Positions 32,764 through 55,475 of a stretch of DNA of 64,000 bases are shown in pieces. Position 1 is the first letter of the stretch; every line of letters starts with the position of its first letter. Both the position numbers and the translations under genes were made by a program. Below the pieces are notes generated by a model, which saw only the letters and a program-made list of their open reading frames with translations, was not told the DNA's origin and ran no database searches. Origin of the DNA: Anaerococcus sp. mt242 (GTDB lineage: Bacteria; Bacillota; Clostridia; Tissierellales; Peptoniphilaceae); the NCBI RefSeq assembly GCF_016798225.1, contig NZ_JAEUYX010000004.1, positions 1 to 64,000 of the forward strand, read 5' to 3'.

Positions 32764-32794
32764 AAAAAGGAGACTAGCTAAAAGTCTCCTTTTT
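32764..32794. terminator. Bidirectional terminator
   Basis: AAAAAGGAGACT and AGTCTCCTTTTT form a 12-bp stem with T runs on both sides. It ends pncB and the left-hand unit of the glycan locus. Confidence 0.9.
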
Positions 32795-33647
32795 CATATT
32801 CTTCTTTAGCAAGTATATAGCCACCTATAAGTCCTGCTTCATTTCCTAAATTTGGGAATACTATATATTCTTCACTACTTGGTAAAATCAAATACTCTCC
32901 TTTGATTTTATCAAATTCCTCTCTAATTTTTTCTATCATACCATCCTTATTTGCAACTCCTCCACCGATTATTATTATATGAGGTCTTAAAATTGCAGTA
33001 TAAGTATATAAAACTTTAGCAATATATCTTGCTGTTATTAAAAAAGCAGGATGATCAATATCTAACTCTTCACCCTTGCTACCCGCTCGTTTTTCAATAG
33101 CAGGACCTGAACAGAGTCCTTCAAAACAGGAATCGTGATAGTCACAAACGCTTTTAAAGTTATCATCAATTTCTCTTGATATTTCAATATGTCCCATTTC
33201 TGGATGAGAAAAGCCTTCGACTATCATTCCATCAACTATAAATGATCCACCTATGCCTGTTCCAATTGTTAAATACAAAGAACTCTTCTTATTTCTAGCA
33301 GCTCCTAAGAAAAATTCTCCTATCCCAGATGCTCCAACATCTGTAGTAAGTCTGATTGGGATATCCAAATTATTCTTTAAAGTTCCTATCAAGTCAAAGT
33401 TTCTCCAAAGTTTTTTTGGTGTTGATAAAATGTAACCATAACTTTTAGAATCTTTATCCAAATCAATAGGTCCAAAAGCTCCTACTCCTATAGATTTTAT
33501 CTTCTCTGTTTTAAAAAAATCGCTTACTTGTTCTAAATTTCTATTTGGATCTTCTGTTTTTATCCTTATTTCTTTTATTATTTTTCCATTCTCATCAAAT
33601 ATGGCGCACCTAATTTTTGTACCACCTAATTCTATTGAACCATACAT
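32778..33647 (-). CDS. ROK sugar kinase, fructo-/mannokinase type
   Basis: A 289-residue ROK kinase. The ATP loop is IELGGTKIRCAIFDENG, and the substrate region has TIGTGIGG and HPEMGHIEI. The zinc-binding signature CDYHDSCFEGLCSGPAIEKR matches the fructokinase/mannokinase subgroup (Bacillus GmuE/YdhR type), which suggests that it phosphorylates free mannose released from glycans. The nearby ManA would then give fructose-6-phosphate. It lies one base after the GH92 gene, last in its operon. Substrate assignment is inferred. Confidence 0.85.
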   Translation of the reverse strand: MYGSIELGGTKIRCAIFDENGKIIKEIRIKTEDPNRNLEQVSDFFKTEKIKSIGVGAFGPIDLDKDSKSYGYILSTPKKLWRNFDLIGTLKNNLDIPIRLTTDVGASGIGEFFLGAARNKKSSLYLTIGTGIGGSFIVDGMIVEGFSHPEMGHIEISREIDDNFKSVCDYHDSCFEGLCSGPAIEKRAGSKGEELDIDHPAFLITARYIAKVLYTYTAILRPHIIIIGGGVANKDGMIEKIREEFDKIKGEYLILPSSEEYIVFPNLGNEAGLIGGYILAKEEYEKGDF

Positions 33648-33648
33648 A

Positions 33649-35760
33649 TTATTCTCCTGTTTCTGGCACTAGGCCTAAAGTAAATTTAATTTCACTTGCA
33701 TTTATAAATTCTCTATGAGACATTTTTCTGTCCCTGTAAACTTTACCATTAACTTTCATTGTTTTGATAAATTTCTTTTGATGGTAATTTTCTTCAGTAG
33801 TTATTTTTAAAATATTTCTATTTGCAAGTTTTACATTTATTTCATCAAAAAATGGAATACCTATTATATATTCTTCTTTCCCTGGCGCAACTGGATATAT
33901 ACCGAGACTAGATAGTATAAACCAAGAACTAAGTGAGCCGTTGTCTTCATCGCCTGGATATCCCTTAAAATCATAGGAAAAATAATTTAGTAAAAGTTCC
34001 TTTACTAAAAGTTGTGTTTTATAAGGCTTATCTACATAATAATATAAATAAGGCAAATGAAATGAAGGTTGGTTTGATATTGCTATTTGACCAAAGTGTG
34101 CAACTTCTAATTCTTTCATTTCATGGATTACTTCTCCATACGATCCAACTTTGAAATCGGATGTCTCATTTGCTATTTCATCAAGTTTATCTTCAAAGGC
34201 CTTTTTTGATCCAAATAAACTGACAATACCTTCAATGTCATGGTAAGCATTAAAACTATTTTGAAAAGCAGCTCCTTCAGTATAAGGCGAACCCCAACTA
34301 AATTTATCAAACTCTTCAGTAAAATTACCATTTCTATCCTTGGCCCTAAACCATCCTATATCTTTATCAAAAAGATTTTGATAAGCTTTAGATTTTTTAT
34401 AGTAAGTATTTGCTAATTCATCTTTAGCTAAGATTTCAGCTACTTTTCCTATAGAAAAATCTGACAAGCTATTATCTAAAGTTTGGTTTACTGATTCGTG
34501 TAAATCAGCTGGTACATATCCTAATTCATCCATCAGATTTGCACCAAATCTGCCATACTTACTCTTATTATTTTCTGGTTTTGCGGACTTTATCATTGCT
34601 TCTAGCAGTATTTCTGACTTATCATTTCCTATTTTTTTTGATAAAAGATCAGCTATAGTATTATCAACTAAAGTTCCTGGCATCATTGATCTCTCATCTG
34701 GCGATAGCCATTTTGGTAAAAATCCGGTATCTATATAAGTATTTATAATTCCTTCTAAAAGATCTTCTAAAAATTTGGTGTCAATTAAACTAAGAAGAGG
34801 AAATAAAGTTTTTTGCCCATCCCAAAATCCTATATTTGTAAACAACTTTCCATTTTTTATTGTTTTATTAAAAGTATCATAGTGGATTTCTTTATCGTCT
34901 TTATCAATTTCAAAAAATCTCATAGGAAATAAGTACGCTCTATATAAGCAGTGGTAGAAAAATTTTCTTTGTTTTTCCTTGCTGTATGAATTGTATTTTT
35001 GGTATAAATCATCTTCTTTTCTTATATTTATTTCAAAATTATTAAAAACTTTTTCCCATTTTTTACTTGTAGATGAAACTAATTTTTCAAAATCTTTTTC
35101 TAATCGTTGATGATTTATAATAGCTTGGTCGATTGAAATAAATGAAGTGCTTATATATAAATTTGTATTTTTACTATCAGTTATTATTTTATAAGCAGAT
35201 TCCGTATTTTTTAAGTCAAAATCATTATCTAAGTCAATTACAATATACATTGTAAAATCTTCATCTTCGCTATCATAGCAATTTTTTACACTCCCTAAAA
35301 TTAGCTTATCTTTTTTTTCAAGAAAAAGACCATCTGCATATATTAAAAAATTCGCTTTTGTATTTGCCTTATAGCTAATAATTCCAGAATAAATATCATT
35401 AGTAATTTCTGCTATTGACCCATCTTCATATATTATTTTATTATAATTAGGCCTAAAAATAGAGCTAGTGGTATCATATTTAATATTTTTTTCTAAATCA
35501 AAAGGGAGTATTGTAAGATATGAATAATCCCCCATCCATGGGCTAGGTTGATGGGTTAATCTGAAACCTTTAAAGTTATCTTCATTTGGATTAAACCACC
35601 ATTCATTTTTATCAACATTACTTTGCACTGCAAAATAATTTGTTCCATGAGGCACACCTACTAATGGTAAGGTATTTCCATTAGAAAATTCTCTTTTAGA
35701 GTCCGTTCCAATCCTTGTATCAGTAAATCTAAAATCATTTAAAATTTCTTTTATAGACAT
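33649..35760 (-). CDS. GH92 alpha-mannosidase
   Basis: A 703-residue glycoside hydrolase of family 92. TLPLVGVPHGTN near the start, SPWMGDYSYLT, NIGFWDGQKTLFPLLSLID, and the calcium/catalytic region GYPGDEDNGSLSSWFILSSLGIYPVAPG are characteristic. The family removes terminal alpha-mannose, most often alpha-1,2-linked, from high-mannose N-glycans. There is no signal peptide, so it should act in the cytoplasm on imported glycan, as the pneumococcal homologue is thought to do. It lies between the GH1 gene and the mannokinase-type ROK gene. Confidence 0.93.
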   Translation of the reverse strand: MSIKEILNDFRFTDTRIGTDSKREFSNGNTLPLVGVPHGTNYFAVQSNVDKNEWWFNPNEDNFKGFRLTHQPSPWMGDYSYLTILPFDLEKNIKYDTTSSIFRPNYNKIIYEDGSIAEITNDIYSGIISYKANTKANFLIYADGLFLEKKDKLILGSVKNCYDSEDEDFTMYIVIDLDNDFDLKNTESAYKIITDSKNTNLYISTSFISIDQAIINHQRLEKDFEKLVSSTSKKWEKVFNNFEINIRKEDDLYQKYNSYSKEKQRKFFYHCLYRAYLFPMRFFEIDKDDKEIHYDTFNKTIKNGKLFTNIGFWDGQKTLFPLLSLIDTKFLEDLLEGIINTYIDTGFLPKWLSPDERSMMPGTLVDNTIADLLSKKIGNDKSEILLEAMIKSAKPENNKSKYGRFGANLMDELGYVPADLHESVNQTLDNSLSDFSIGKVAEILAKDELANTYYKKSKAYQNLFDKDIGWFRAKDRNGNFTEEFDKFSWGSPYTEGAAFQNSFNAYHDIEGIVSLFGSKKAFEDKLDEIANETSDFKVGSYGEVIHEMKELEVAHFGQIAISNQPSFHLPYLYYYVDKPYKTQLLVKELLLNYFSYDFKGYPGDEDNGSLSSWFILSSLGIYPVAPGKEEYIIGIPFFDEINVKLANRNILKITTEENYHQKKFIKTMKVNGKVYRDRKMSHREFINASEIKFTLGLVPETGE

Positions 35761-35775
35761 ATAATTTTTTCCTAT

Positions 35776-37158
35776 TTAAAGTTCAAAACCATTATTTTCA
35801 CTTAATTTCTTAAACCATTGACCTGACTTCTTTATTTTTCTTTGGCCAGTATTTAAATCTAATTCTACAAGACCATATCTATTTTTATAGGCATTTAGCC
35901 AGCTCCAGCAATCTATAAAAGTCCAAAGTTGATAACCCTTACAGTTTGCTCCCTCATTGATAGCCTTACTTAGCCAGTATAGGTGTTCTTTTATAAAATC
36001 AATCCTATAATCATCTTTTATCTGCCCATTTTCTCTAAATCTTTCTTCATTTTCAACACCCATACCATTTTCTGAAACTATCCACTCTATGTTTTTATAA
36101 TTGTCACGGATATTTATTGCAATATCATAAAGGGCTTTTGGATATATTTCCCAACCTCTATATGGATTCATACGTTTGCCTGGCATATCATAAGTTAAAT
36201 AATATTTGCTAGGCATAAAAAGTGCATCCTCTTTATATTGATAAGGATTTTCCCTCACTCTTAGGGGCTGATAATAGTTTACTCCTAGAAAATCAATAGT
36301 ATTTTCTTTTATAATTTCAAGCTCTTCTTGGCTATATTCCGGAGTGAGTTTTTCATTTTTTATTAAGTTAATAAGTTTTTCAGGATATTTTCCAAAGACT
36401 GAAGGATCTAGAAATGAGGATTTATTGATTAATTCTGCCATTTCTGCTGCTTTTAAATCACCATTATTGTTGCTTCTTGGATAAGCTGGTGTTAGATTTA
36501 AAATTATTCCAATTTTTTTATTAAAATCCATTTCTTTATAGTTTTTAATAGCTAAGGCTGAAGCAAGCTGAGTGTTAAATGCTGCTTGGACTGCTTTTTT
36601 AGGATCTACTTCTGCTGGATAGTGATAACCATAAAGATATTGGCATTCTACTTGGACTATCGGCTCATTAAAGGTAAACCAACCATCTACTAAATCATCA
36701 AAAAGTTCAAAGCATTTTCTAGCATAATCCTTATAAGCTTCTACGGTTTTTTTATTAGTCCAGCCACCTATATCCATAAGATACATTGGCAAGTCAAAGT
36801 GAAATAAGTTTATATAAAGAGTAATATTTTTTTTGCGAATCCTAGAAAAATAATCTCTATAAAAACTAACAGCTTTTTGATTTATCTTTCCATCTATATC
36901 TGGTATAAGCCTAGCCCAGTTTATAGATGTCCTATAAACATTTTGTCCAGTTTCTTCTAACAAGTCTACATCAGTTTTATAATTGTTATAAATATCTGTC
37001 GTTTTACTTGGCCCTACTTGCTTATAAAATTTATACGGATCTATTTTATACCAATAGTCCCATATATTCTCAGATTTATTGTCTATATTTCCTGCACCTT
37101 CTGACTGAGTGGCTGATGTAGCCGTTCCATATAAAAATCCTTTAGGAAATTTAATCAT
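35776..37158 (-). CDS. GH1 glycosidase, possibly a 6-phospho-beta-glycosidase
   Basis: A 460-residue family GH1 enzyme. Acid/base Glu165 lies in FTFNEP and nucleophile Glu363 in SENGMG. At the site where beta-glucosidases have Glu (NFEW), this protein has FIDCWSW, with Ser419, followed by Lys425 and Tyr428. Loss of that Glu to Ser is a mark of 6-phospho-beta-glycosidases. The neighbouring ROK kinase gene, ten bases upstream, could supply a phosphorylated disaccharide. In this locus it is the only candidate to cleave the Man-beta-1,4-GlcNAc core. Family is certain; substrate is inferred. Confidence 0.88.
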   Translation of the reverse strand: MIKFPKGFLYGTATSATQSEGAGNIDNKSENIWDYWYKIDPYKFYKQVGPSKTTDIYNNYKTDVDLLEETGQNVYRTSINWARLIPDIDGKINQKAVSFYRDYFSRIRKKNITLYINLFHFDLPMYLMDIGGWTNKKTVEAYKDYARKCFELFDDLVDGWFTFNEPIVQVECQYLYGYHYPAEVDPKKAVQAAFNTQLASALAIKNYKEMDFNKKIGIILNLTPAYPRSNNNGDLKAAEMAELINKSSFLDPSVFGKYPEKLINLIKNEKLTPEYSQEELEIIKENTIDFLGVNYYQPLRVRENPYQYKEDALFMPSKYYLTYDMPGKRMNPYRGWEIYPKALYDIAINIRDNYKNIEWIVSENGMGVENEERFRENGQIKDDYRIDFIKEHLYWLSKAINEGANCKGYQLWTFIDCWSWLNAYKNRYGLVELDLNTGQRKIKKSGQWFKKLSENNGFEL

Positions 37159-37168
37159 AATTCCTCCT

Positions 37169-38047
37169 TTACTTTAATAATCTTTTTTCTTCTATAGATT
37201 GTTTTAAATTTGCGTAGGCCCCGTATAAGTTATTATCATTAAAAAACGATACAGGGCTAATCTCTATATCTATAGATTTGAAAACCCCTGTGTTTAATTT
37301 GTTTTTAATCTCTCTTACAAATCTCTCATCACTAGAAATAGCCCCTCCTAAATAAATTATTTCTGGATTTACAGTATAAAAAATATTGTATATTCCCATG
37401 GCTAAGTAAGTAAACATCTGGTCTACTTCTGTAAAATAAGGTTCTTTTTTTTGCATGTATTTATCAAAAATTAAATACGTACTTTCATCTATACCATATT
37501 TTTTTATCATTTTTCGCCTGATATTTGGTAGAGTTGCTAGTTTAGAAAAATTATCAAAATTACCTTCTTCATTTTTTAAAAGCATATAGCCAAATTCTCC
37601 AGCTTCTAAGCTTTTACCTTTTATAATTTTGCCATTTTTTGTTATAGCTCCACCTATACCAGAGCCTATAATTAAAAAAGCTAGATAATTTTTATCAACT
37701 TTCCCATAAAAAATCTCCGCTAAGGCAGCACAATTTGCATCATTTTCAATGGCCACTGGGAGATTAAATTTATTTTTTATTTCCATGGCAAAATTATATT
37801 CTGTAATAAACTCAACTGCGGATTTTCCATAAATATTGCCTGTAGAAGAATCAACAGTTCCTGGAGAAGAAAATCCTATGCCATCAAGCTTGTGGTTTTT
37901 AGCAAAAGAATTAATTTTATCTTCAAAAAACTTTAAAAGATCATCCATATTTTTCTCCTGTTTTGAAGAAAATTTTTCAACTATTTTATCATTTTCTATC
38001 AAAGCATATTTATTGCTTGAACCACCTATATCAAATACTAAATACAA
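37169..38047 (-). CDS. ROK sugar kinase, beta-glucoside-kinase-like
   Basis: A 292-residue ROK protein with no DNA-binding domain, so a kinase rather than a regulator. The ATP motif FDIGGSSNKYALIEN, the sugar site VAIENDANCAALAE, IIGSGIGG and AGEFGYML are visible; the cysteine zinc site of the other ROK protein is absent. It starts with TTG. It is followed closely by the GH1 gene, the pairing seen for beta-glucoside kinase BglK, which phosphorylates disaccharides at the non-reducing O6. It is divergent from the RpiR regulator, 44 bases away. Substrate is unproven. Confidence 0.82.
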   Translation of the reverse strand: MYLVFDIGGSSNKYALIENDKIVEKFSSKQEKNMDDLLKFFEDKINSFAKNHKLDGIGFSSPGTVDSSTGNIYGKSAVEFITEYNFAMEIKNKFNLPVAIENDANCAALAEIFYGKVDKNYLAFLIIGSGIGGAITKNGKIIKGKSLEAGEFGYMLLKNEEGNFDNFSKLATLPNIRRKMIKKYGIDESTYLIFDKYMQKKEPYFTEVDQMFTYLAMGIYNIFYTVNPEIIYLGGAISSDERFVREIKNKLNTGVFKSIDIEISPVSFFNDNNLYGAYANLKQSIEEKRLLK

Positions 38048-38091
38048 TTTTTATCTCCTGTGTTATAATTTACTTGTAGAAAGGAGCTACA
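38048..38091. promoter_or_regulatory. Short divergent control region of the glycan locus
   Basis: Only 44 bases separate the divergent ROK kinase and RpiR regulator genes. It holds GGAG-type binding sites for both and a TATAAT on the plus strand (TGTTATAATTTAC) that could serve the regulator. Promoters for both directions must overlap each other or the coding regions. Confidence 0.5.
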
Positions 38092-38826
38092 ATGACTGTT
38101 AGTTCTTATGAATTTATCATGGATATCATAAGTTCCAATGATATTAGCCTTTCAAAATCTGAAGAAAGCATTTTAAATACCTTAAAAATAAATAACTACG
38201 ATATTACAAATTTTGATATAGCAGATTTTGCTAAAACTTTTTTTGTTTCAAATGCCACTGTAACTCGCTTTTCTCAAAAGCTTGGTTTTTCTGGATATCA
38301 AGAACTAAGATATGCCATTAGTGAAACAAAAGAAGTCTCTATATACAAAAGCCAAGATATATATCTAAATATGGTTAGTTCTTTTAAAGAATTGCCAGAA
38401 AGGACTATTAAGCTTATAAAAAGTTTAAATAATTTTCCAAAAATAGCTATAATTGGCATAGGTTCATCTGGGCTTTGCGCAAATGAATTTGTCTATAAGC
38501 TAAGAGAGCTTGATTTATTTACTTCAGATTATGCCAAAGAGCCTTATTCGATAAATCTTTTAACAAAAAATTTAAGCTATAATGACCTTTTGATTGCTAT
38601 CTCCTTAAGTGGGGAAAATCACACAATATTAGAAGGCGTAAATAACGCTATTGATAAAGGAGCCCCAGTTTTTTCCATAACTAGAAACTACGATTCCAGT
38701 TTAGGAAAAAAATCCGATTACATAATACGCACTCCTGCTTACCCTAATCATAGTTATGAAATATCAAAAATGGCACCTATTCTCATTACTATGGATATAA
38801 TTTGTGAGATTTATCAAAACAATTAG
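38092..38826 (+). CDS. RpiR-family regulator with SIS domain
   Basis: A 244-residue regulator. The N-terminal helix-turn-helix (residues 25-80) shows FDIADFAKTFFVSNATVTRFSQKLGFSGYQELRYAI. The C-terminal SIS sugar-phosphate domain (about 105-240) has IAIIGIGSSGLCANEFVYKL and LLIAISLSGENHTILEGV. It should sense a sugar phosphate and control the N-glycan genes around it. It is the only plus-strand gene of the locus, splitting it, and its stop overlaps the GH125 stop by four bases. AAGGAG precedes its ATG. Confidence 0.9.
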   Translation: MTVSSYEFIMDIISSNDISLSKSEESILNTLKINNYDITNFDIADFAKTFFVSNATVTRFSQKLGFSGYQELRYAISETKEVSIYKSQDIYLNMVSSFKELPERTIKLIKSLNNFPKIAIIGIGSSGLCANEFVYKLRELDLFTSDYAKEPYSINLLTKNLSYNDLLIAISLSGENHTILEGVNNAIDKGAPVFSITRNYDSSLGKKSDYIIRTPAYPNHSYEISKMAPILITMDIICEIYQNN

Positions 38827-40100
38827 TTTTTAATTATTTCTAATCCTAGATAATTTAAAATAGCCTCACAAAACATAGAATTTGACCAAGAAAACCAATC
38901 TCTTGTGTATTTATTAGGATCATCTTTGTCAAATCCTTCATGCATAAGATAGGTATTTGCATGTGTATTTTCAAAATATTTTAGTATTTTATTTTTCTCA
39001 CCTTCATTTGTACTTGTCATCATTTGTATACTTAAAGCTATATGCCAGATATAATCTTCTGGCGTATGGTCTGATCCTATTCCATCTGCTGCTCTTCCCA
39101 TAAAATAATTTTTATTTTTATTTGATAAAATGGCTTTTCTAGTATTTTTATAAAGAGAATTATCCCTATCTATATATTGCAAATATGGTAAAGATAATAA
39201 AGATGGTACATTTGCATCATCCATAAATAAATACTTTCCTAATCCATCTACTTCATAAGCAAATATTTCTCCAAAATCTGGATCATTTATTATTCCATAG
39301 TCTTTTATTCCTTGATTGATTTCTGTTGCAAGATTTCGCATTTTTTCTGCTAATTGCTTATCTTTTTTTGCATCAATAAGACAACTAGCTAATTTGTTTA
39401 AAGTAACCACTGCAAAAGCATTTGCAGGAATCAAGTATTGGTAAAGGCAGGAATCATCACTTGGTCTAAAACCTGTCCAGCTCATACCAGTATAAGCAAC
39501 TTCCGTTCCTCTTTTTCCAGTTCTTAAAGAATCTGTCTCTTTCCATGGATTTGGTCTTTCAAACTCGTAGCTAGATCTGCTATGGTCTTGTTCTAAGGCA
39601 ATTAAATCTACTATATTTTTTAATATTCTAATAAATTCATAATCAAAAATAGAATTATCCTTAGTTTTTTCATAGTAAAGGTAAGCAGTTTGCATTACAT
39701 AACATAAGGAATCAAGTTCGTATTTTCTCTCCCAAACCCAATCAGACTCAAAATCTGTTATATCTTCCTTGCTCCAAGAACGTCCATTAGCCTTTATATT
39801 AAAAGCATTGGCATAGTAGTCCTTGTCTACTAAAAAAATTTGCCTTTTTAATACTTTTTTTATTAAATCATCAGCCTCTTTACTATCTATATAAAAAAGT
39901 GGTCTGATTTGTCCGCTTGAATCTCTTAACCACATGGCATCAATATCGCCTGTGATTACAAAAGCATCATTTCTATCTGTAAGTTTTATAGTTGTGGTAA
40001 AGGTATTTTTTATAGCAATAGCAAATATTTTTTTTATTTCATCACTTAACTTATCAGAATTATTTACATATTCTATAAGGGGATTTACTATATTTTCCAT
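38823..40100 (-). CDS. GH125 exo-alpha-1,6-mannosidase
   Basis: A 425-residue glycoside hydrolase of family 125. The family signatures ITGDIDAMWLRDSSGQIRPL and GMSWTGFRPSDDSCLYQYLIPANAFAV are present, and the C-terminal half has DDANVPSLLSLPYL and GIGSDHTPEDYIWHIA. Known members remove alpha-1,6-linked mannose from N-glycan cores. There is no signal peptide. It follows GH38 after 15 bases and would continue the degradation of the mannose branches. Confidence 0.92.
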   Translation of the reverse strand: MENIVNPLIEYVNNSDKLSDEIKKIFAIAIKNTFTTTIKLTDRNDAFVITGDIDAMWLRDSSGQIRPLFYIDSKEADDLIKKVLKRQIFLVDKDYYANAFNIKANGRSWSKEDITDFESDWVWERKYELDSLCYVMQTAYLYYEKTKDNSIFDYEFIRILKNIVDLIALEQDHSRSSYEFERPNPWKETDSLRTGKRGTEVAYTGMSWTGFRPSDDSCLYQYLIPANAFAVVTLNKLASCLIDAKKDKQLAEKMRNLATEINQGIKDYGIINDPDFGEIFAYEVDGLGKYLFMDDANVPSLLSLPYLQYIDRDNSLYKNTRKAILSNKNKNYFMGRAADGIGSDHTPEDYIWHIALSIQMMTSTNEGEKNKILKYFENTHANTYLMHEGFDKDDPNKYTRDWFSWSNSMFCEAILNYLGLEIIKN

Positions 40101-40115
40101 ATATTAGCCTCCTAA

Positions 40116-44044: not shown

Positions 44045-44130
44045 AGAAACTCCTTTTAATATTGAAAATATTTTTTTATTATCTTTAATCCTAATTTAAA
44101 AATGAAAATAAGTTCATTTTGCTATTTATA

Positions 44131-44165
44131 ATTAAAGACTTACACAAAAGTGTAAGTCTTTAATA
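44131..44165 (-). terminator. Hairpin between binding-protein and glycosidase genes
   Basis: A perfect inverted repeat (ATTAAAGACTTACAC against its complement, loop of about four bases) lies right after the binding-protein stop. The T run after it is poor (AATTATAAATAG), so it may be a weak terminator or an mRNA-stabilising hairpin that sets the ratio of transporter to enzyme. Confidence 0.65.
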
Positions 44166-45701
44166 TTAGTTCTTTTCACTGCTGAAAGTGTCAAGTTGAT
44201 TTTGGATTTCTTCTATTGCTTTATCAATGCCTGCTGTTTCTAGTTGGTCTAAAAACTCTTGATAGTAAGCATCATCAAATGCTCCAGTTTTAAGATTGTT
44301 GTAATATCTTTCAACTGTAGCTTGAATATTTTCTAATTCACCTTGGATATTTGTTTTATCAACTCTAAATCCTAGGGTTGGTGAAGCTACTAACTTATCT
44401 TCAAATTCTTTTACTTCTTCATCAAATTCAGGATCTCCAATTCCTACACCATCTGCCATAGGAGTTCTATTAAACATTGATAAGTATTGGAAGCTTGCTA
44501 CATCATATACTTCATCTTTTGTTCCAAGCTTTTTAACTTTTCCATCTTTTAATTCATAGTCTACTCCTTCAATACCGTATGATAATAGGTCTTGAAGTTT
44601 TTTATCTGTAAACATTCTTTCAACAAAGTCTAAAGCTTGGTCTTTGTATTCAGATTGGCTATTGATTCCAACTAATTTTCCTGTAGCTTTTTCATTATCT
44701 ACAGGAATAGATTCTCCTATTATAGAAGCTACTTTTGGTTCTTCTTCCTTTGACCAAATAGCCTCTGATCCAGGTTCTCCTTCGTATTCTCCTACAAGTG
44801 ATGCTTCATAAGCTCCTTTCGCTTCATCAGCTTGGATTTGTGGTGCATCTGGATTTATTAAACCATCGTCATAAAGCTTTTTCATTTGATCAATCTCTGC
44901 CTTAAAGTCAGGATCTTTATAAAGGTTGTAGGCTACTAATTTGCCATCTTTTTCTTTTACTCCTATACCTTTTTCAACTTCAAAAGCAGGATTTTCCCTT
45001 GCTAGTAAAAAGTCACTTGCAACATTGAATGGATATTCAACTTGATCTTCATTATCTTTTACTTCTTTTAAATATTCTTCTAGTTGTGTAGTATTTTGTA
45101 TATCTTGGTATGGTATGTCATACTTTTCTACATATTCTTTGTTCCATACAAATTGATTAGCTGCAACTACTCCAGGATACGCTGCTGGCAATGCATATAA
45201 AGGTCCATTTATTTTTGTACCTTCAATCATCCTATCATCTATTAATTCTTTAGCACCTTTAAGTTCATTATCTAAATAGTCAGACAAGTCTAAAAATGCG
45301 TTTTGGTCTGCTAGAGTTTTATAAGGACCTGCCCAACTAGATGTAAAGGCTAAATCCCAATCTTCTCCAGAGTTTACAGCTAGTTGTAATTTTTGTTGGT
45401 AATCTCCCCAATCATAAAATACTGTATTTATATGATATCCTGCATCTACGCTATCTAGGTATTCATTTGTTGCATCTACTACCTCTTGGTGATTAACTGG
45501 TTCTTCTCCTATATTAAAATATGTTAGTGTAGGTATATCACCACTATCACTTGTTGTTACATCATTAGCTTTTTCTGAGCTTGTAGTTCCTTTTTCACCG
45601 TTATCAGTATCTTTATTCTCAGAGTTATTTCCACAGCCAGTAACTCCAAGTGCTAATGCTAAAATTAAAGCAAATTTCTTTTTCAAATTAAATGTTTTCA
45701 T
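44166..45701 (-). CDS. Oligosaccharide-binding lipoprotein 1 (ABC importer)
   Basis: A 511-residue lipoprotein with signal FALILALALGVTGC. It has an acidic linker, then an LplA-like solute-binding fold (TLTYFNIGEEPVNHQ at the start, GEDWDLAFTSSWAGPYKTL, and a C-terminal helical tail). It should capture glycans outside the membrane for the two permeases in the same operon. It is clearly paralogous to the next binding protein along the whole length, so a tandem duplication is evident. A hairpin immediately follows the gene. Confidence 0.9.
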   Translation of the reverse strand: MKTFNLKKKFALILALALGVTGCGNNSENKDTDNGEKGTTSSEKANDVTTSDSGDIPTLTYFNIGEEPVNHQEVVDATNEYLDSVDAGYHINTVFYDWGDYQQKLQLAVNSGEDWDLAFTSSWAGPYKTLADQNAFLDLSDYLDNELKGAKELIDDRMIEGTKINGPLYALPAAYPGVVAANQFVWNKEYVEKYDIPYQDIQNTTQLEEYLKEVKDNEDQVEYPFNVASDFLLARENPAFEVEKGIGVKEKDGKLVAYNLYKDPDFKAEIDQMKKLYDDGLINPDAPQIQADEAKGAYEASLVGEYEGEPGSEAIWSKEEEPKVASIIGESIPVDNEKATGKLVGINSQSEYKDQALDFVERMFTDKKLQDLLSYGIEGVDYELKDGKVKKLGTKDEVYDVASFQYLSMFNRTPMADGVGIGDPEFDEEVKEFEDKLVASPTLGFRVDKTNIQGELENIQATVERYYNNLKTGAFDDAYYQEFLDQLETAGIDKAIEEIQNQLDTFSSEKN

Positions 45702-45773
45702 ACTCTTCTCCTTATGAAAATGTATTATTTTAATAAGATATAAATATATAACTTAATTAAAATCTCATTAAAT

Positions 45774-47270
45774 TTATTTATCTTCCCATTTATCTAATTG
45801 TTCTTGAACATCTTTTACTAATTTATCTATGCCTGCAATATCAAGTTTTTCTAAAAACTCTTGGTAGTATTCTTCGCTAAAGGCTCCAGTTTTTATATTC
45901 CTTTCGTATTGCTCAATGACTTCTTCTACATTTTCTGCTTCTTTTTCATTGCCAGTTTTATCAAAGTTAAATCCTAAAATTGGTGAAGCTTCTACCCTGT
46001 CTAAGTATGTATCAAGCATTTCCTTTTTACTTTTTTCATCTGTGTTAGCATTTACAGTTGGTGTCATCATTTCTGATGCTAAAAATGTAAATCCTGGTAC
46101 TTCGTAGCCGCTATCTTCTATAATATCAACTTTTTCATCAACTAAATTATAGTGTTTGCCTTCTATACCATAAACTAAATATCTCATTAGTTCTGGGTCA
46201 CTATACATTCTATTTAAAAAGTCCATAGCTTCTTTGGCGTGTTCAGTTTGAGAATTTATTGCTGCAAGAGATCCAGTTGCTTTTTCATTTGTAACTAGGG
46301 CTTTATCTTCTGCAAATGAAGAAACCACTTCAGTATTATAGCTTCTGGACCATATGTTATCAGGATTTACTCCTCCCTCACCTTTTGCTACAAGAAAAGT
46401 ATCCCCTGATTGGGCATTGGATGCTTCTAGCTGTGGAGCTGACGGATCGATATAACCTTTATCCATATAATCTTTCATAGTAAAGGCTAAATCTTTTACC
46501 TCTTTGTTAGCCCATTTATTATATGCAATAAGCTTTCCATTTTCATTTTTTACTGCCACTCCTGGTGTAGCTACAGATTGTGGATCTTTTGTCTGAAATA
46601 TATAATCACTAAGCACAACAAATGGATATTCTACACTAGCTTCTTTTTCTTTAACTTCCTTTAAATATGGTTCTAAGTCAGACTCTGTTTTTATATCATC
46701 AATAGGAATATCATATTTATCCACATATTCTTTGTTCCAGATAAAGTAATCAGCTGGTACTATATTTTCTGCTGTAGCTGGTACTCCATAAAGTCTACCA
46801 TTTATGCTAGCTCCTTTTATAACTTCATCAGAAGCAGAGTCTAAAATAGCTTTTCCATCTTCTTTTATAAGATCAGTTATGTCTAAAAACGCACCTTTTT
46901 CAGCCATATTCTTATAAGGTCCAGCCCAGCTGGCAGTAAATGCAATATCCCAATCATCTCCAGCATTGGATGCTAATTGCAATTTTTGCTGATAATCTCC
47001 CCAATCAAAATATTGGAAACTTATATGGTATCCTGCATCTTTGTTATCTAAGTATTGATTTATACTTTCTGCCACCTCATCTGTGTCTGCTTGTGGTGGT
47101 CCTACATTGTAATAAACCAATGTAGGCACTTCATCTGAATTATTTTCTTGCTGCTTTACTTGATTTTTAGAATTACTTTCATCATTTTCTGCTTGATTAC
47201 TACAAGCTCCTAATGATACTAACAAAGCTAGCAAGATAGCAACTTTTCCACTTTTTGAAAATATTTTCAT
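45774..47270 (-). CDS. Oligosaccharide-binding lipoprotein 2 (ABC importer)
   Basis: A 498-residue paralogue of the neighbouring binding protein. Signal VAILLALLVSLGAC ends in a lipobox Cys. TLVYYNVGPPQADTDEV, GDDWDIAFTASWAGPYKNM and GFNFDKTGNEKEAENVEEVIEQYERNIKTGAF align with the same segments of its partner. Two binding proteins sharing one set of permeases may recognise different glycan forms. It lies 30 bases downstream of the second permease gene. Confidence 0.9.
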   Translation of the reverse strand: MKIFSKSGKVAILLALLVSLGACSNQAENDESNSKNQVKQQENNSDEVPTLVYYNVGPPQADTDEVAESINQYLDNKDAGYHISFQYFDWGDYQQKLQLASNAGDDWDIAFTASWAGPYKNMAEKGAFLDITDLIKEDGKAILDSASDEVIKGASINGRLYGVPATAENIVPADYFIWNKEYVDKYDIPIDDIKTESDLEPYLKEVKEKEASVEYPFVVLSDYIFQTKDPQSVATPGVAVKNENGKLIAYNKWANKEVKDLAFTMKDYMDKGYIDPSAPQLEASNAQSGDTFLVAKGEGGVNPDNIWSRSYNTEVVSSFAEDKALVTNEKATGSLAAINSQTEHAKEAMDFLNRMYSDPELMRYLVYGIEGKHYNLVDEKVDIIEDSGYEVPGFTFLASEMMTPTVNANTDEKSKKEMLDTYLDRVEASPILGFNFDKTGNEKEAENVEEVIEQYERNIKTGAFSEEYYQEFLEKLDIAGIDKLVKDVQEQLDKWEDK

Positions 47271-47300
47271 ATACCCCTCTACCCCTCCTATATATAAAAT

Positions 47301-48227
47301 TTATTCTTTAACAGCCCCTAAAGTTAATCCACTTATAAAATATCTTTGGAAAAATGGATATGCAATAAGGATTGGTGCTGTCGTAATTACTACTATCGCC
47401 ATCTTTAAAGATTCTTGAGGCAGGGTTTTTCTAATCTCGCCTGCTAGTCCTCCCAAGGCATCTTTTCTAAGGGACAAAAAGTTTGTTGAGTTTTGAATTC
47501 TCATAAGCATATATTGAACAGGTATCTTATCTTCACTATCAATATATAACATAGCTTGATACCAGTCATTCCAATAAGCTAAAGTTAAAAATAATCCAAC
47601 TGTAGCAATTATCGGTAATGAAAGTGGCAAAATAATCTTAAAGAATATTTGCATCTCATTTGCCCCATCAATTGTTGCAGCTTCTACGAGTGCATTGGGT
47701 ATGCTTGTTTGAAAATATGTTCTCATTAAAATAATATTATATGAACCAACAAGTCCTGGTAAAATCAAAGCCCACATAGAATCTTTAAGTCCCAAAAACT
47801 GTGTCATAATTAAATAATTTGCTACAAGTCCTCCACTAAATAGCATAGGAATTGTAGATACTTTGGTAAAAAACCCTTTATATTCATAATCTTCTCTGGA
47901 TAAAGAATATGCATACATAGTGGTAAGAATTAAGGCAAGTATTACACCTACTACTGTAATAATAATTGAATTTTTGTATGACCTTGCTATTTGTCCACCA
48001 CTTTTAAATATGAACTTATAAGCTTCTAAGGAAAATTTTTCAGGTATTAAGGAATAACCATTTGATTTTATAGTGGCTTCATCTGTTATAGATATCATTA
48101 CCACAAACAAAAATGGTAGTATAGCGGATATAGTAAGAAGTATTAATACAATATTTAATACTACATTAGAAGTTTTACTTATCTTTAAAGGATCATATAC
48201 TTTTTTTTGTGTCTTTTCTTTTTGCAT
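47301..48227 (-). CDS. ABC importer permease (LplC/YtcP type)
   Basis: A 308-residue permease with six membrane helices. LNIVLILLTISAILPFLFVVMISITDE opens it, and the EAA loop for ATPase contact reads EAATIDGANEMQIFFKIILPLSLPIIA. The end GLTLGAVKE is typical of the family. It pairs with the LplB-type permease encoded just upstream. The families match those of the pneumococcal N-glycan transporter permeases. Confidence 0.92.
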   Translation of the reverse strand: MQKEKTQKKVYDPLKISKTSNVVLNIVLILLTISAILPFLFVVMISITDEATIKSNGYSLIPEKFSLEAYKFIFKSGGQIARSYKNSIIITVVGVILALILTTMYAYSLSREDYEYKGFFTKVSTIPMLFSGGLVANYLIMTQFLGLKDSMWALILPGLVGSYNIILMRTYFQTSIPNALVEAATIDGANEMQIFFKIILPLSLPIIATVGLFLTLAYWNDWYQAMLYIDSEDKIPVQYMLMRIQNSTNFLSLRKDALGGLAGEIRKTLPQESLKMAIVVITTAPILIAYPFFQRYFISGLTLGAVKE

Positions 48228-48235
48228 ATAAGCTC

Positions 48236-49249
48236 CTAGAATAGCGATCTTTGGGGATCATAACGTTTTACAATTTTATTAGAAAATAGAATTAAAATAG
48301 TACCAACAACTGATTGTAGTAGCGAAACTGCTGAAGATAATCCTATATCCCCTGTTTGTAAAAGCGCTCTAAATACATATGTATCAATTACATTTGTAAC
48401 ATTATATAATGGCCCTGAGTTTCTAGGCACTTGGAAAAACAAACCAAAATCTGCCCTAAATATATTTGCCAGTGATGTTACAAAAATTATTATAATGACA
48501 GGTTTTAAAAGTGGTATCGTAATTTTTTTTGTTTGCTGCCACTTAGTTGCGCCATCCATAGCTGCTGCTTCATAATAGGTCCTATCTATGCCCGAAAGAG
48601 CTGATAAGTAAACTACTGTATTATATCCTAGACCCTTCCACGAGTTAATAAGTACTAAAAAGAATGGCCAAAATTTTGTATTTGTATACCAGTTAATTTT
48701 ATCCCCACCAAGGCTAACTATCAGTCTATTTAACAAACCCTTATCAGGAGATAAGAATGCAAAAACTGCATAGCTTATTACAACCCATGATAAAAAGTGA
48801 GGCAAAAACATAGACGTTTGATAAAATTTAGCAGCCTTTTTGTTTAAAATCTCATGTAAGGCAATGGCAGTAAACATAGCTAAAACTATATTTAATACTA
48901 TGAAAATAAAATTGTAGCCAATAGTATTTCTAATAATTATCCAAGCATCCTTGCTTCTAAAGAAAAACTTAAAGTTATCTAGACCTACCCAATCACTTTT
49001 ATAGAGATTATAAAAGAAATTTTTAGAAAAAATTTTATATCTTTTAAATGGTATAATCAAGCCAAACATCGGCAAATAGGCAAATATTATAAACCAAATA
49101 AAAGCCGGCAAGGAAAATACTAAAAGGGGCAAATTTGTTTTAAACCTTTGTTTAAAAGGTTTCTTTTTTGCTTTTCTTTTATTTTCTATCCCAGGTTGGT
49201 TAGAAATAGCTGTTTCTTTCATTTGTTCTTTTGGTTGTTTATCTTCCAT
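48236..49249 (-). CDS. ABC importer permease (LplB/YteP type)
   Basis: A 337-residue permease with a charged N-terminal extension (about 35 residues) and six helices. LPLLVFSLPAFIWFIIFAYLPMFGLIIPF and the EAA loop EAAAMDGATKWQQTKKITIPLLKP are characteristic. It forms the translocation pore with the LplC-type partner, nine bases downstream. It imports oligosaccharide delivered by the two binding lipoproteins. Confidence 0.92.
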   Translation of the reverse strand: MEDKQPKEQMKETAISNQPGIENKRKAKKKPFKQRFKTNLPLLVFSLPAFIWFIIFAYLPMFGLIIPFKRYKIFSKNFFYNLYKSDWVGLDNFKFFFRSKDAWIIIRNTIGYNFIFIVLNIVLAMFTAIALHEILNKKAAKFYQTSMFLPHFLSWVVISYAVFAFLSPDKGLLNRLIVSLGGDKINWYTNTKFWPFFLVLINSWKGLGYNTVVYLSALSGIDRTYYEAAAMDGATKWQQTKKITIPLLKPVIIIIFVTSLANIFRADFGLFFQVPRNSGPLYNVTNVIDTYVFRALLQTGDIGLSSAVSLLQSVVGTILILFSNKIVKRYDPQRSLF

Positions 49250-49260
49250 CCCAGCCTCCT

Positions 49261-49902
49261 CTATAATTTCTTAATAGTATATTCATTTATAGTATTTACC
49301 ATAGCTGCAAATATTAAGATAAAGATAAGCAGCCAAAAATTATTATTTATTATAAGTCTTTCAAAAAGTTCCCATACAAGATAAACTATTATAGAATAGA
49401 AAAAATATCTATATGTAAGTATGAGTGAATTTTTAATAGTTTGAATAATTCCCATATATTTTCTATGAGAAGTTTGTAAGATTGTATAAAATATAATTCC
49501 CCTATAAAAATACAAGAGTATGATCGTTAATATTCCTATAATTCCATTTGTTGATGAAATTATTCTTAAAGAAGAATCTGCATAAAAATATAAGGAAAAA
49601 AGTAATACATAAAGCAAATATTTAGAAAGCCCATTCTCATCAAAAGTTTCTTTAAAATAAGATGCTAAGGTCTTTTTGTCATTTACAAAAGTAGCTGTAA
49701 AAGAATTTGCCTGTCTTTCTAAAGCAAATCCTATAAGTCCACTTAAGGGAACAAATAAGACTAAATATTTGCTAATATTTTCCGTCAAAAATAAATTTAG
49801 TAAAAATATGGGCAAAAGTATTAATGAGCTATAAAATATACTTACAAAAGCATATAAAATTACTTCACCCAGTTTATACATGCCCTTAGCAAATGATTCC
49901 AT
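49261..49902 (-). CDS. DUF624 (YesL-type) membrane protein
   Basis: A 213-residue membrane protein with about five hydrophobic segments. Its topology and its position between an importer ATPase and an LplB-type permease match the YesL family (DUF624), a common companion of complex-oligosaccharide ABC importers. The function is unknown; an accessory role in transport or sensing is inferred. It overlaps the ATPase gene by one base. Confidence 0.75.
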   Translation of the reverse strand: MESFAKGMYKLGEVILYAFVSIFYSSLILLPIFLLNLFLTENISKYLVLFVPLSGLIGFALERQANSFTATFVNDKKTLASYFKETFDENGLSKYLLYVLLFSLYFYADSSLRIISSTNGIIGILTIILLYFYRGIIFYTILQTSHRKYMGIIQTIKNSLILTYRYFFYSIIVYLVWELFERLIINNNFWLLIFILIFAAMVNTINEYTIKKL

Positions 49903-51017
49903 TAATTTATTCTCTTTTGCGTTTTACTATCAAATAAGTGGATATCATCAAAGTTTACAAATAACTTTATGCTATCACCAACATTTCTATCCTTAGACTT
50001 ACCAGAAACCTTTACTGCAATTTTATTATCTCCATCCTCTTCTATAGTTACTGAAGACTTTTTATCTTCTGCATAAATAATAGTTTCATCACCTAGCATT
50101 TCTATATTTACAATTTGAGCTTTAATATAATTTTCTCTCCCATCTAAATCATTTAGAGAAAATGCTTCTGGTCGTATACCTATAATTAAATCTTTATCTT
50201 TAAATGTTTTTAGTGCATCTTTATTTTTTTCAGAAAGATCAATACTATCATTGCCAACTATAAGTTTTCCTTGATCTATTTCTCCTTTAAAAAAGTTCAT
50301 AGGAGGAGATCCTATAAAATTTGCTACGAATACGTTTGCAGGATAATCATATATTTCTTCTGGACTTCCTATTTGTTGGATATAGCCGTCTTTCATAACC
50401 ACAATTCTGCTAGCCATTGACATAGCTTCTGTTTGATCGTGAGTTACATATATAGTTGTAGTATTTAAGCTATCATGGATTCTAGAAATTTCTGTTCTCA
50501 TTTGGCTACGAAGTTTGGCATCTAAGTTACTTAAGGGTTCATCCATTAAAAATATATCTGCCTGGCGAACAATAGCTCTACCTAAGGCTACCCTCTGCCT
50601 TTGCCCTCCTGATAAAGCAGCTGGTTTTCTATCTAAATAAGGCAATAATTCTAGCATTTCTGCTGCTTTTTTTACTTTTTCTTCGATTTCTTTTTTATCT
50701 TTTTTTTGAATTTGTAATCCAAAAGCCATATTGTCAAACACACTCATATGTGGATATAGAGCATAGTTTTGAAAAACCATAGCTATATTTCTATCTTTTG
50801 GATTTACTTCATTCATCAACTTATCATTTATGTAAAGTTCTCCACTACTTATCTCTTCAAGACCTGCTATCATTCTTAAAGTAGTCGATTTGCCACATCC
50901 AGATGGACCAACAAAAACTATAAATTCCTTATCAGCTATATCTAAATTGAAATCGTATACCGCTTGTACACCATTGGGATATATTTTATCAATATTTCTT
51001 AAACTTAATGTTGCCAA
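49902..51017 (-). CDS. Sugar ABC importer ATPase (MsmX/UgpC type)
   Basis: A 371-residue ATPase. Walker [12 protein letters not shown], the signature [17 protein letters not shown], Walker [17 protein letters not shown] and the switch His THDQTEAMS are present. The C-terminal regulatory domain (about 240-370) matches MsmX/MalK-like multitask ATPases. The start is TTG at 51017 after GAGGAGGG; the longer frame upstream is not needed and the choice gives the normal family length. It heads the operon, right after a consensus promoter. Confidence 0.94.
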
Positions 51018-51057
51018 CTTACCCTCCTCATTATAAAGAAATTCAGTTATTGTCATT

Positions 51058-51087
51058 TTTATAAGAGCAAGTTGATATTTTTGTCAA
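51058..51087 (-). promoter_or_regulatory. Promoter of the N-glycan import and degradation operon
   Basis: TTGACA (51082-51087) and TATAAA (51058-51063) on the minus strand with an 18-base spacer. An inverted repeat (TTGACAAAAATATCAA, 51072-51087) covers the -35 box and is a likely repressor site. Confidence 0.75.
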
Positions 51088-51189
51088 TCTTTTACTCTTT
51101 CTTATATAATTCTAAATTATCCCCTGATTTTTATCAACGATTTATTAAATATAGATTAAATTTTCATAAATTTTAAAAGTTTAAAAGTA

Positions 51190-51209
51190 TTATGAAATTA
51201 TTTTCATAA
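51190..51209. repeat. Perfect palindrome upstream of the glycan operon
   Basis: TTATGAAATTATTTTCATAA has eight-base arms around a four-base centre. It lies about 100 bases upstream of the -35 box and just before the manA terminator. Its GAAA..TTTC core resembles sites reported for RpiR-type regulators, which is an inference. Confidence 0.5.
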
Positions 51210-51234
51210 AAAAAAGAGCTCTATGACTCTTAAT
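51206..51234 (-). terminator. Terminator of manA
   Basis: AAGAG and CTCTT form a short stem overlapping the manA end; eight T follow on the minus strand. Confidence 0.7.
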
Positions 51235-52174: not shown

Positions 52175-52183
52175 ATTTTCTCC

Positions 52184-54995: not shown

Positions 54996-55030
54996 ATATT
55001 CTCCTTGATAAATTATAAACAAAGTTCGGC

Positions 55031-55057
55031 AAAATAAAAGCTATCGAGTTGATAGCC
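55031..55057 (-). terminator. Terminator after the FMN-binding lipoprotein gene
   Basis: GGCTATC and GATAGCT form the stem, followed by TTTATTTT on the minus strand. Read-through into the flavoprotein gene is possible. Confidence 0.75.
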
Positions 55058-55064
55058 TTTAAAA

Positions 55065-55475
55065 TTATTTTGCGTTTGCGATTGCTTCGTCTACAGCTGA
55101 TTTGAATGCTTCAGATGTTACTGTTGCACCTGATACATTATCTACACCTTCTGTTCCGTTTGCTTCTACAATTGCATCTGTTAATTCTGGAATAGCTTTA
55201 GCTCCTATATCTTCTGATTCTGTGTGGTCTGTATCGATTGATTCGATAACACCATCTTTTCCAAAGTTAACTTTTACTTTGATGTCTCCACCGTAACCTG
55301 CAACTGTTGCTTCACCAGCTGATGGTTGAGCTTCTTCTGTTGGAACTGTTTCAGTGTTTTCAGCAGCATTTTTGTCTGCTGCATCTTTATTTTCTGCTGT
55401 GTTTGCATTGTTTCCACAAGCTGCAAATGTAAATGCCATAGCTGCTACTAGGGTAAATTTATTTAAGTTTTTCAT
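55065..55475 (-). CDS. FMN-binding domain lipoprotein
   Basis: A 136-residue lipoprotein (lipobox FTFAACGN) with an Ala/Asn/Glu-rich linker and one FMN-binding domain. The flavinylation-type motif DNVSGATVTSEAF is at the C-terminal side. Such small proteins carry a covalent FMN and pass electrons outside the membrane, like PplA in flavin-based extracellular electron transfer. It shares this domain with the flavoprotein encoded next and is probably its electron donor (inference). The ApbE flavin transferase is not in the window. Confidence 0.88.
   Translation of the reverse strand: MKNLNKFTLVAAMAFTFAACGNNANTAENKDAADKNAAENTETVPTEEAQPSAGEATVAGYGGDIKVKVNFGKDGVIESIDTDHTESEDIGAKAIPELTDAIVEANGTEGVDNVSGATVTSEAFKSAVDEAIANAK

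Follow-up and report, generated by a model that had tools for sequence, protein, structure and literature searches.

A candidate kinase-first route for cleaving the N-glycan core bond in an Anaerococcus glycan import and degradation locus

Introduction

How is the last bond of an N-glycan, the β-1,4 linkage between core mannose and N-acetylglucosamine (GlcNAc), broken by bacteria that dismantle these glycans inside the cell? The question is raised by a locus in a 64-kb window (the whole stretch of DNA that was analysed, 64,000 nucleotides) from Anaerococcus sp. mt242, in which an importer and trimming enzymes stand beside a glycoside hydrolase (GH) of family 1 and two sugar kinases of the ROK family, here called ROK1 and ROK2. 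In the 2017 pneumococcal model, the fate of Man1GlcNAc is given as unknown and the available excerpts identify no β-1,4-mannosidase candidate (PMC5215778); it is for want of such a candidate that the model ends at this disaccharide. A second pneumococcal account also stops at ManGlcNAc and, in the parts available, assigns no step to the ROK protein of the locus (PMC7075642). The families GH2, GH5_18 and GH130 are those given for the Man-β-1,4-GlcNAc bond in a review of 2023 (PMC10154615).

Herein, a phosphorylate-then-cleave route is proposed. An NgtS-like ATP-binding cassette (ABC) importer would bring N-glycan fragments into the cell, where GH84 would take antennary GlcNAc and GH92, GH38 and GH125 would remove α-1,2-, α-1,3- and α-1,6-linked mannose, respectively, leaving Man-β-1,4-GlcNAc. 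ROK2 would then phosphorylate this disaccharide at O6 of mannose, and a phospho-specific GH1 would split it into mannose-6-phosphate (Man6P) and GlcNAc. Freed mannose would be phosphorylated by ROK1, ManA would convert Man6P to fructose-6-phosphate (Fru6P), and an RpiR-type regulator would sense a sugar phosphate and control the units. In this scheme the linkage specificities, the cytoplasmic location, the import substrate and the role of ROK1 are suggested by homology, while the substrates of ROK2 and GH1 and the ligand of RpiR are put forward as hypotheses. The observations behind it are gene content, protein families, nearest structures, conservation and co-occurrence.

The explanation as a whole, joining N-glycan import, dismantling and core cleavage by ROK2 and GH1, is given slightly better than even odds. 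Kinase-first core cleavage is likewise favoured, by a small tilt of the balance, as the best account of why an ABC-fed locus should contain, besides ROK1, another ROK kinase together with a GH1 of the phospho type. Its broader form, in which a ROK enzyme makes 6-phospho-Man-β-1,4-GlcNAc, or 6-phospho-mannobiose in β-mannan loci, and GH1 releases Man6P, stands at an even chance.

GH1 and its expected phosphorylated substrate

The GH1 gene (35776-37158; PF00232, E 2e-119) lies on the minus strand, as do manA and all other genes of the locus except that of the regulator. It is the sole GH1-family match in the window genome, in which no match was found to PF02836 (GH2), PF00150 (GH5) or PF04041 (GH130). 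That genome comprises 1.69 Mb in 42 contigs, the window being contig 37, and genome-wide absences refer to Pfam profile searches on this 98.5% complete assembly.

By sequence, the four best Protein Data Bank (PDB) chains for GH1 are 5nav, 5naq, 5foo and 4b3k (E ≤2.5e-137). The AlphaFold2 (AF2) model, with a predicted local distance difference test score (pLDDT) of 88.3 and weak stretches at 169-179 and 422-425, places the same four at the head of the fold search (Z 52.5-52.8, root-mean-square deviation 1.6, 453-455 residues), the other 46 of the 50 structures listed having Z ≤48.6. The titles of these four structures read 6-phospho-β-glucosidase or -glycosidase, and one of them is from S. pyogenes. 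With SPy1599 (4b3k) and LpBgl (5naq), GH1 shares 48-49% identity (Z 52.5) and an SWxxxYxNRYG stretch. Judged from these comparisons, it is a member of the 6-phospho-β-glycosidase clade, which the original prediction had missed. Across 13 aligned members, the catalytic pair E165 and E363 (NEP/ENG), S419, N426 and Y428 are invariant. The phosphate-binding motif of 6-phospho-β-glycosidases is S-x6-K-x-Y; GH1 keeps S419 and Y428 and has Asn426 in place of the lysine, the same Asn being present in 4b3k, 5foo and 5nav.

Membership of this clade implies that a phosphorylated substrate would be needed. SPy1599 and LpBgl are served by a phosphotransferase system (PTS), whereas the window enzyme is proposed to act on a manno substrate and to be fed by an ABC importer and a kinase. 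A scan of 20 proteins encoded in the locus and its surroundings found no PTS protein; it did not extend to the rest of the genome or to relatives' loci. A phospho-clade GH1 with no PTS among the scanned proteins suggests a kinase as the source of the phosphate. GH5 was considered as an alternative enzyme in relatives and set aside, the weak PF00150 hits being mostly GH1-sized ORFs (open reading frames), some of them at known GH1 places.

ROK2 and ROK1 as probable sugar kinases

The gene adjoining GH1 encodes ROK2 (37169-38047; PF00480, E 2.7e-29), proposed here as a Man-β-1,4-GlcNAc 6-kinase. By both sequence and fold (AF2 model pLDDT 90.8) its best match is 2gup, followed by 4htl. The former is a ROK family protein of S. 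pneumoniae TIGR4 whose structure is titled as a complex with sucrose, a disaccharide, and it is matched at E 3.8e-175 by the ROK of a pneumococcal-type streptococcal locus (L093). The latter is named a β-glucoside kinase yet titled a putative N-acetylmannosamine (ManNAc) kinase, so its function is unsettled. BglK is a kinase that acts before a 6-phospho-glycosidase; ROK2 shares the ROK fold with BglK and 4htl, and an ExGY motif with 4htl. An assignment of ROK2 to BglK itself was rejected (NF042998; score 133.5 bits, cut-off 550).

D103 of the ENDxN motif of ROK2 is invariant. The canonical sugar motif of ROK proteins is ExGH (PMC5458393), from which ROK2 departs with EFGY, likewise present in 2gup and 4htl. 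EFGY recurs in the ROK2 orthologues of 17 of the 18 family genomes that carry GH125 and in locus L001 of A. octavius, probably the remaining one (G020), and the ROKs of streptococcal loci have EFGY, EFGF or EYGC. As a diagnostic, ExGY was rejected, the ROKs in or beside such loci also having EFGF, EYGC, EVGL, EIGL or EFGC.

The window genome also holds a sialic-acid-type operon (G000:C26, L125 1697-7136), which, read from its ORFs, encodes NanE-like, NanA-like, sodium symporter-like and YhcH-like proteins, a ROK and an RpiR; this ROK has EIGYM where ExGH is expected.

It is conceivable, though improbable, that the locus serves N-glycans while ROK2 phosphorylates GlcNAc or another free hexose and GH1 is an ordinary β-mannosidase on unphosphorylated Man-β-1,4-GlcNAc. 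GlcNAc freed by GH84 and by core cleavage has to be phosphorylated, GlcNAc and ManNAc kinases are among the fold matches of ROK2, and ExGY is also found in the sialic-operon ROK, all of which would suit a free-hexose kinase. An ordinary β-mannosidase fits poorly, however, with the place of GH1 in the 6-phospho clade and with several of its relatives adjoining PTS genes, which deliver phosphorylated sugars.

At the other end of the unit, ROK1 (32778-33647; PF00480, E 2.7e-57) is fructokinase-like and keeps the canonical motif as EMGH. Its best NCBIfam model is ScrK, at 280 bits against a cut-off of 400, so it was not assigned to ScrK itself. From this resemblance, ROK1 is ScrK-like and probably phosphorylates free mannose, a reaction for which ScrK has been suggested in S. 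pneumoniae (PMC7075642).

Conservation and co-occurrence of the ROK2-GH1 pair

The distribution of the pair was followed in 130 genomes of the family, in 147 streptococci and, in the wider phylum, in 16 GH125 loci of nine genomes. GH125 occurs in 18 of the 130 family genomes, the window included, and all 18 keep GH38-GH125-RpiR-ROK2, while GH84, GH92 and ROK1 vary. With identity limits set after the gaps had been seen, ROK2 (at least 41% identity; next best 37%) is found in exactly these 18 genomes, and the GH1 clade (at least 57%; next best 39%) is confined to 17 of them, the other 112 genomes lacking it. A. octavius (L001) has the whole gene order, and A. provencensis (L002) has it minus GH92. 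With a core kept throughout the GH125-bearing family genomes, this recurrence speaks for more than a chance arrangement.

In streptococci, where hits were counted at 48% identity or more over the full length, the GH1 clade occurs in 99 of 147 genomes, namely in all 77 with GH125 and in 22 of the 70 without it. Hits below 48% were dropped, as was a partial one (G665, 59% over 270 residues, in a genome lacking GH125) that would bring the latter count to 23/70. At 54% identity or more, the clade is present in 75 of the 77 and in 15 of the 70. Physical linkage by itself does not account for the co-occurrence, as some streptococci have their GH1 away from the N-glycan locus; for instance, in G420 (L112) it stands beside an ORF reading as GlmS, about 110 kb from GH125. 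In a 40-row GH1 tree, the rows from the family, 17 in number with one identical pair, form a single clade (support 98/95), and linkage of GH1 to N-glycan genes requires about five changes, at least four of them on well-supported branches.

That GH1 and ROK2 are mere passengers serving unrelated β-glucosides is very unlikely, since all 17 family genomes with the GH1 clade also carry GH125. The naming of SPy1599-type enzymes as 6-phospho-β-glucosidases and the company of PTS genes that the clade keeps in other bacteria would speak for such passengers; the 20 proteins scanned in the window include no PTS protein, relatives' loci not having been scanned for PTS.

Four loci (L024, L025, L027 and L029) hold neither GH84 nor ROK1 in their 19-20 kb stretch, retain ROK2 and GH1, and carry a second ROK gene between the two. 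This persistence bears on a further alternative, in which the pair would act on antennal Gal-β-1,4-GlcNAc, in a 6-phospho-β-galactosidase role, rather than on the core. Dual 6-phospho-galactosidase/glucosidase GH1 enzymes exist (PMC10360150), and the window genome has no GH2 match, as that alternative would allow. Nevertheless, it is held to be quite unlikely in view of the four loci without GH84, of a separate GH2 that sister Anaerococcus loci hold beside the ROK2-GH1 pair, and of the link between the clade and β-mannanase and manA in Bacillales.

The clade outside N-glycan loci

Twelve contexts of the GH1 clade outside the family were picked, rather than evenly sampled, from 59 plasmid records. 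On a Priestia megaterium plasmid (L133 657-16852), a clade GH1 (54%) lies with lactose/cellobiose PTS genes, a GH26 mannanase (PF02156, E 1.8e-115), a GH36 α-galactosidase, two esterases, ROK2-like and ROK1-like kinases and two manA genes; judged by its gene set, this is a β-mannan locus of the galactomannan type. An Exiguobacterium plasmid carries a clade GH1 with PTS genes and a phosphomannose isomerase ORF that also matches ROK (L134 2977-4776), likely an isomerase-kinase fusion. Since ManA takes up Man6P, the expected product of a 6-phospho-β-mannosidase, the presence of manA beside clade GH1 genes and the proposed activity fit each other. The element common to the N-glycan and β-mannan loci is β-1,4-linked mannose.

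Further contexts include E. faecium ef332 (ABC permeases, α-galactosidase, acetyl esterase and an EFGY ROK), E. faecium SMVRE20 and two E. raffinosus (fructose-type PTS, GH38, RpiR and ROK), and Niallia (ABC genes and a ROK2-like gene). PTS genes accompany the clade GH1 in Klebsiella, Enterobacter and Latilactobacillus, where no ROK appears among the genes listed; in Pantoea, a ROK is near the PTS-linked GH1, and in Listeria innocua the GH1 stands alone with a GntR gene. The E. raffinosus locus L023 had been a candidate for a locus lacking GH1, an idea that was dropped because four GH1 genes matching at E ≤1e-100 lie on its megaplasmid, the closest in sequence showing 55% identity at a distance of about 120 kb.

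In a Streptococcus genome without GH125 (L114 9152-13420), a clade GH1 was observed with a gene of the MupG (6-phospho-N-acetylmuramidase) family and a PTS EIIC gene, a small PTS IIB-like ORF lying between.

Points that weigh against kinase-first cleavage

Several findings speak against the proposed route. Characterised members of the GH1 clade bear the name 6-phospho-β-glucosidase, the molecule names of three of the four top structures read β-galactosidase or β-glucosidase, and no report of a manno activity for the clade was found in the literature covered. The clade has a wider role than N-glycans, as it also stands with lactose/cellobiose-type PTS genes and occurs in 22 of the 70 streptococci that lack GH125. 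One family genome (G069, L038) has a GH125 locus with ROK2 and without a clade GH1. Elsewhere in the phylum, a ROK2-like gene accompanies two of the 16 GH125 loci and GH1 only one. The association in Streptococcus (Fisher p 6e-22) is uncorrected for kinship, and the identity limits for both family clades, drawn in gaps of 58 to 39% for GH1 and 41 to 37% for ROK2, carry the after-the-fact choice mentioned above. Finally, ExGY does not prove a disaccharide substrate, given the EIGY found in the ROK that the sialic-acid-type operon encodes.

Probable import and trimming of the N-glycan

The locus is organised, in minus-strand order, as ManA; ATPase, membrane protein, two permeases and two binding proteins; GH84-GH38-GH125; RpiR on the opposite strand; and ROK2-GH1-GH92-ROK1. 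The ORFs match their coordinates, and Pfam families could be assigned to all products but that of 49261-49902. The gene inventory of the original prediction (importer, two lipoproteins, five glycosidase families, two ROKs and RpiR, with manA alongside) agrees with both.

Sugar uptake would be initiated by two NgtS-like lipoproteins (lipoprotein 1, 44166-45701; lipoprotein 2, 45774-47270), each with SBP_bac_8 and DUF3502 domains. For both, the nearest solved structure is NgtS of S. pneumoniae (5swa/5swb, 5suo), the best PDB match being 5swa at E 7e-35 and 6.2e-42, respectively; NgtS structures carry Man1GlcNAc and Man5GlcNAc ligands (PMC5215778). A crude Kyte-Doolittle hydrophobicity check finds hydrophobic N-termini with a lipobox-like cysteine in both binding proteins and in none of the five glycosidases, in line with the earlier claim that the latter lack signal peptides.

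Among the trimming enzymes, GH84 (42743-44044; PF07555, E 8e-78) belongs to the exo-β-N-acetylglucosaminidase (NAGidase) family, and its sequence shares 96% identity with its counterpart in Anaerococcus octavius NCTC9810, the nearest named species, and 64% with the one in A. provencensis, in a GH84 scan of genome contigs that extended to just two Anaerococcus species. GH38 (40116-42746; PF01074 and others, E 1.4e-28) and GH125 (38823-40100; PF06824, E 8e-137) are adjacent, show no export signal by the same N-terminal check, and are paired as in streptococci. By homology they would be α-1,3- and α-1,6-mannosidases, Spy1604 of S. pyogenes being α-1,3 specific (PMC2815779) and GH125 being specific for α-1,6-mannose (PMC5215778). 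GH92 (33649-35760; PF07971, E 2.3e-118) has as nearest structures the α-1,2-mannosidases 7fe1, 6dwo and 7fe2, followed by SpGH92 (5swi). Its W75, H546 and E547 align with 5swi chain positions 93, 563 and 564, which a constant offset of 23, by our own reckoning, equates with Trp70, His540 and Glu541, the +1 subsite residues that give SpGH92 its α-1,2 specificity (PMC5215778).

Because the binding proteins are nearest NgtS and a GH38-GH125 pair occurs with an α-1,2-type GH92, the locus is read as one of cytoplasmic N-glycan catabolism, which on this homology is very likely. The import and intracellular degradation foreseen by the original prediction is upheld to that extent. Service of other mannosides instead, such as mannan fragments from fungi or plants, or solutes resembling mannosylglycerate, is unlikely, although three features would agree with it: searches for GH85 and GH18 found no endoglycosidase match in the genome, the GH1 clade is present in a β-mannan locus, and the only NCBIfam model matched by GH38, with 411.7 bits where the cut-off is 1138, is that of mannosylglycerate hydrolase. 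Such substrates would leave unexplained the NgtS-nearest binding proteins and the joint presence of GH84, GH125 and an α-1,2-type GH92, all of which the N-glycan reading accommodates.

The locus had also been called complete, a description that does not hold, as GH85 (PF03644) and GH18 (PF00704) gave zero matches in the whole window genome; the absence of a releasing enzyme from the window had been noted before, and the genome-wide search with these two models was negative as well. GH85 is present in four of the 18 GH125-bearing family genomes (G034, G056, G057 and G067) and GH18 exceeds the cut-off in three (G057, G059 and G067), so that 13 of the 18 carry neither. The lack of a match in the window genome leaves room for feeding on glycans released by others or by another kind of enzyme, and most carriers of the locus, this genome included, may use glycans freed by other organisms.

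At one and the same site, sister Anaerococcus loci carry a GH29 α-L-fucosidase and a 1142-residue GH2 (L002 18176-19543; L030 15619-19044) that are absent from the window locus, and Anaerococcus loci could thus differ in how far they can trim complex glycans. In two non-Anaerococcus loci, a gene for a β-helix protein with a GLAA-B β-barrel domain (L024 14827-16476; L025 4579-6270) lies between GH38 and the binding-protein gene, in the place of the Anaerococcus GH84.

Regulation, remaining genes and flanks

The regulator (38092-38826, plus strand), with HTH_6 and SIS domains by Pfam, is divergent from ROK2 across a gap of 44 bases (38048-38091), and 37991-38120, which holds this gap, contains no inverted repeat within the limits of the scan. 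Two matches to ATGAA-N6-TTCAT are found at 51192-51207, 5' of the importer operon, and at 44102-44117, 5' of GH84-GH38-GH125, both read on the plus strand. Two matches in 64 kb compare with 0.30 expected, and four of 100 shuffles reach two, for a pattern picked after the sequence had been seen. Counting the window, like sites precede GH84 in 4 of 13 loci, against 0.03 expected from mononucleotide shuffles; the corresponding counts are 2 of 6 for the ATPase and 1 of 17 for GH38. Based on pattern matching, ATGAA-N6-TTCAT is a candidate RpiR operator. A terminator-like inverted repeat, identified by eye, occupies 44134-44165 (minus strand), 3' of the binding-protein genes.

The importer is completed by a MsmK/MalK-type ATPase (49902-51056; PF00005, OB_MalK, TOBE_2) and two permeases (48236-49249 and 47301-48227; both PF00528, BPD_transp_1). 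The product of 49261-49902, a membrane protein with a hydrophobic N-terminus, had been labelled DUF624, for which no Pfam model offers support: nothing matches at E 0.001, and the best match at E ≤10, to an unrelated model, has E 0.018. Only its place in the operon and its hydrophobicity fit the label, which is thus unconfirmed. ManA (51230-52174; PF20511/PF21621) is a type I mannose-6-phosphate isomerase, the family that converts Man6P to Fru6P.

Identity to A. octavius L001 is 96-99% for the locus proteins and 90% for the membrane protein, but only 79% for ManA and the next gene, just outside the locus (window 51057-53044 against L001 1004-4150). This drop is possibly a recombination boundary. 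Two genes with FMN-binding domains adjoin the locus (53151-55475), one of them fused to an FAD-binding reductase, and both products have lipoprotein-like N-termini by eye.

Relation to known systems and biological meaning

The set of GH84 with a GH1/ROK pair had been considered unlike described loci, a view that the literature contradicts. In S. pyogenes, an operon encodes GH38 (Spy1604), GH84 (Spy1600), a GH1 and transporters, the GH38 and GH84 lack signal peptides, and intracellular N-glycan use has been inferred for it (PMC2815779). The window locus resembles this Spy1600-1604 operon in GH38, GH84, GH1 and sugar transporters, and three related Streptococcus loci (L109-L111) combine GH84, GH1, GH125 and GH38 with a ROK2-type gene; the GH1 of L110 gives a 461-residue, 1039-bit match to 4b3k from S. 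pyogenes. A fourth Streptococcus GH84 locus (L123) has no GH1 in its 20 kb stretch, its genome (G538) having one elsewhere (60%). The S. pyogenes operon, however, has a two-component kinase, whereas the window locus has RpiR and no two-component gene among the 20 proteins scanned. The ATPase, ROK1 and manA in or beside the window operon also set it apart. S. pyogenes possesses the GH18 enzyme EndoS (PMC2815779), while the window genome has no PF00704 match.

The pneumococcal Carbohydrate Processing Locus, with NgtS-P1-P2 and EndoD (PMC5215778), shares GH38, GH125, GH92, ROK and the NgtS-type importer with the window locus. In the latter, GH84 replaces GH20C, and there is no GH20 or GH29 match within 32778-51056. 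The pneumococcus has the GH85 enzyme EndoD and the window genome has no GH85 match; the pneumococcal N-glycan genes are scattered and their ATPase is probably borrowed (PMC5215778), whereas the window genes lie together. A similar gene order has also been noted for the hylEfm region of E. faecium (PMC3039558). That region shares ABC permeases, a binding protein and GH84 with the window, and in its 19 kb stretch GH20 and GH2 replace GH38, GH125, GH92 and GH1.

The presence of GH84 and GH1 being known, what is new here is the proposal of core cleavage by a kinase and a phospho-GH1; no paper on a phospho-β-mannosidase or a Man-β-1,4-GlcNAc kinase was found among the open-licence literature. As ROK2 and a 6-phospho-type GH1 stand beside N-glycan genes, two named enzyme candidates become available for the core bond. 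In S. pneumoniae, ectopic RR07 raises the locus ROK, GH38, GH125, GH92, EndoD, NgtS-P1-P2, BglA3, ManA and ScrK together, and BglA3 is a 6-phospho-β-glucosidase according to the title of a paper cited there (PMC7075642; Terra 2016). Like the locus ROK, BglA3 is given no step in the parts of the literature available. GlmS neighbours a 6-phospho-β-glucosidase in S. gordonii (PMC8386731), and by analogy we infer that BglA3 corresponds to the GlmS-linked GH1 of L112. The window operon thus groups functions (ROK, 6-phospho-GH1, ScrK-like kinase and ManA) that the pneumococcal regulon induces from scattered sites.

Anaerococcus is a genus of human skin and mucosa. The operon suggests that its members would consume N-glycans that neighbouring organisms release. 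If true, the proposed route would provide both the pneumococcal locus ROK and the BglA3/SPy1599 group with a function and would explain a 6-phospho enzyme in ABC-fed loci. For Anaerococcus, its relatives and GH125-bearing streptococci, it would also mean another way of breaking the N-glycan core bond, in addition to those of GH2, GH5_18 and GH130.

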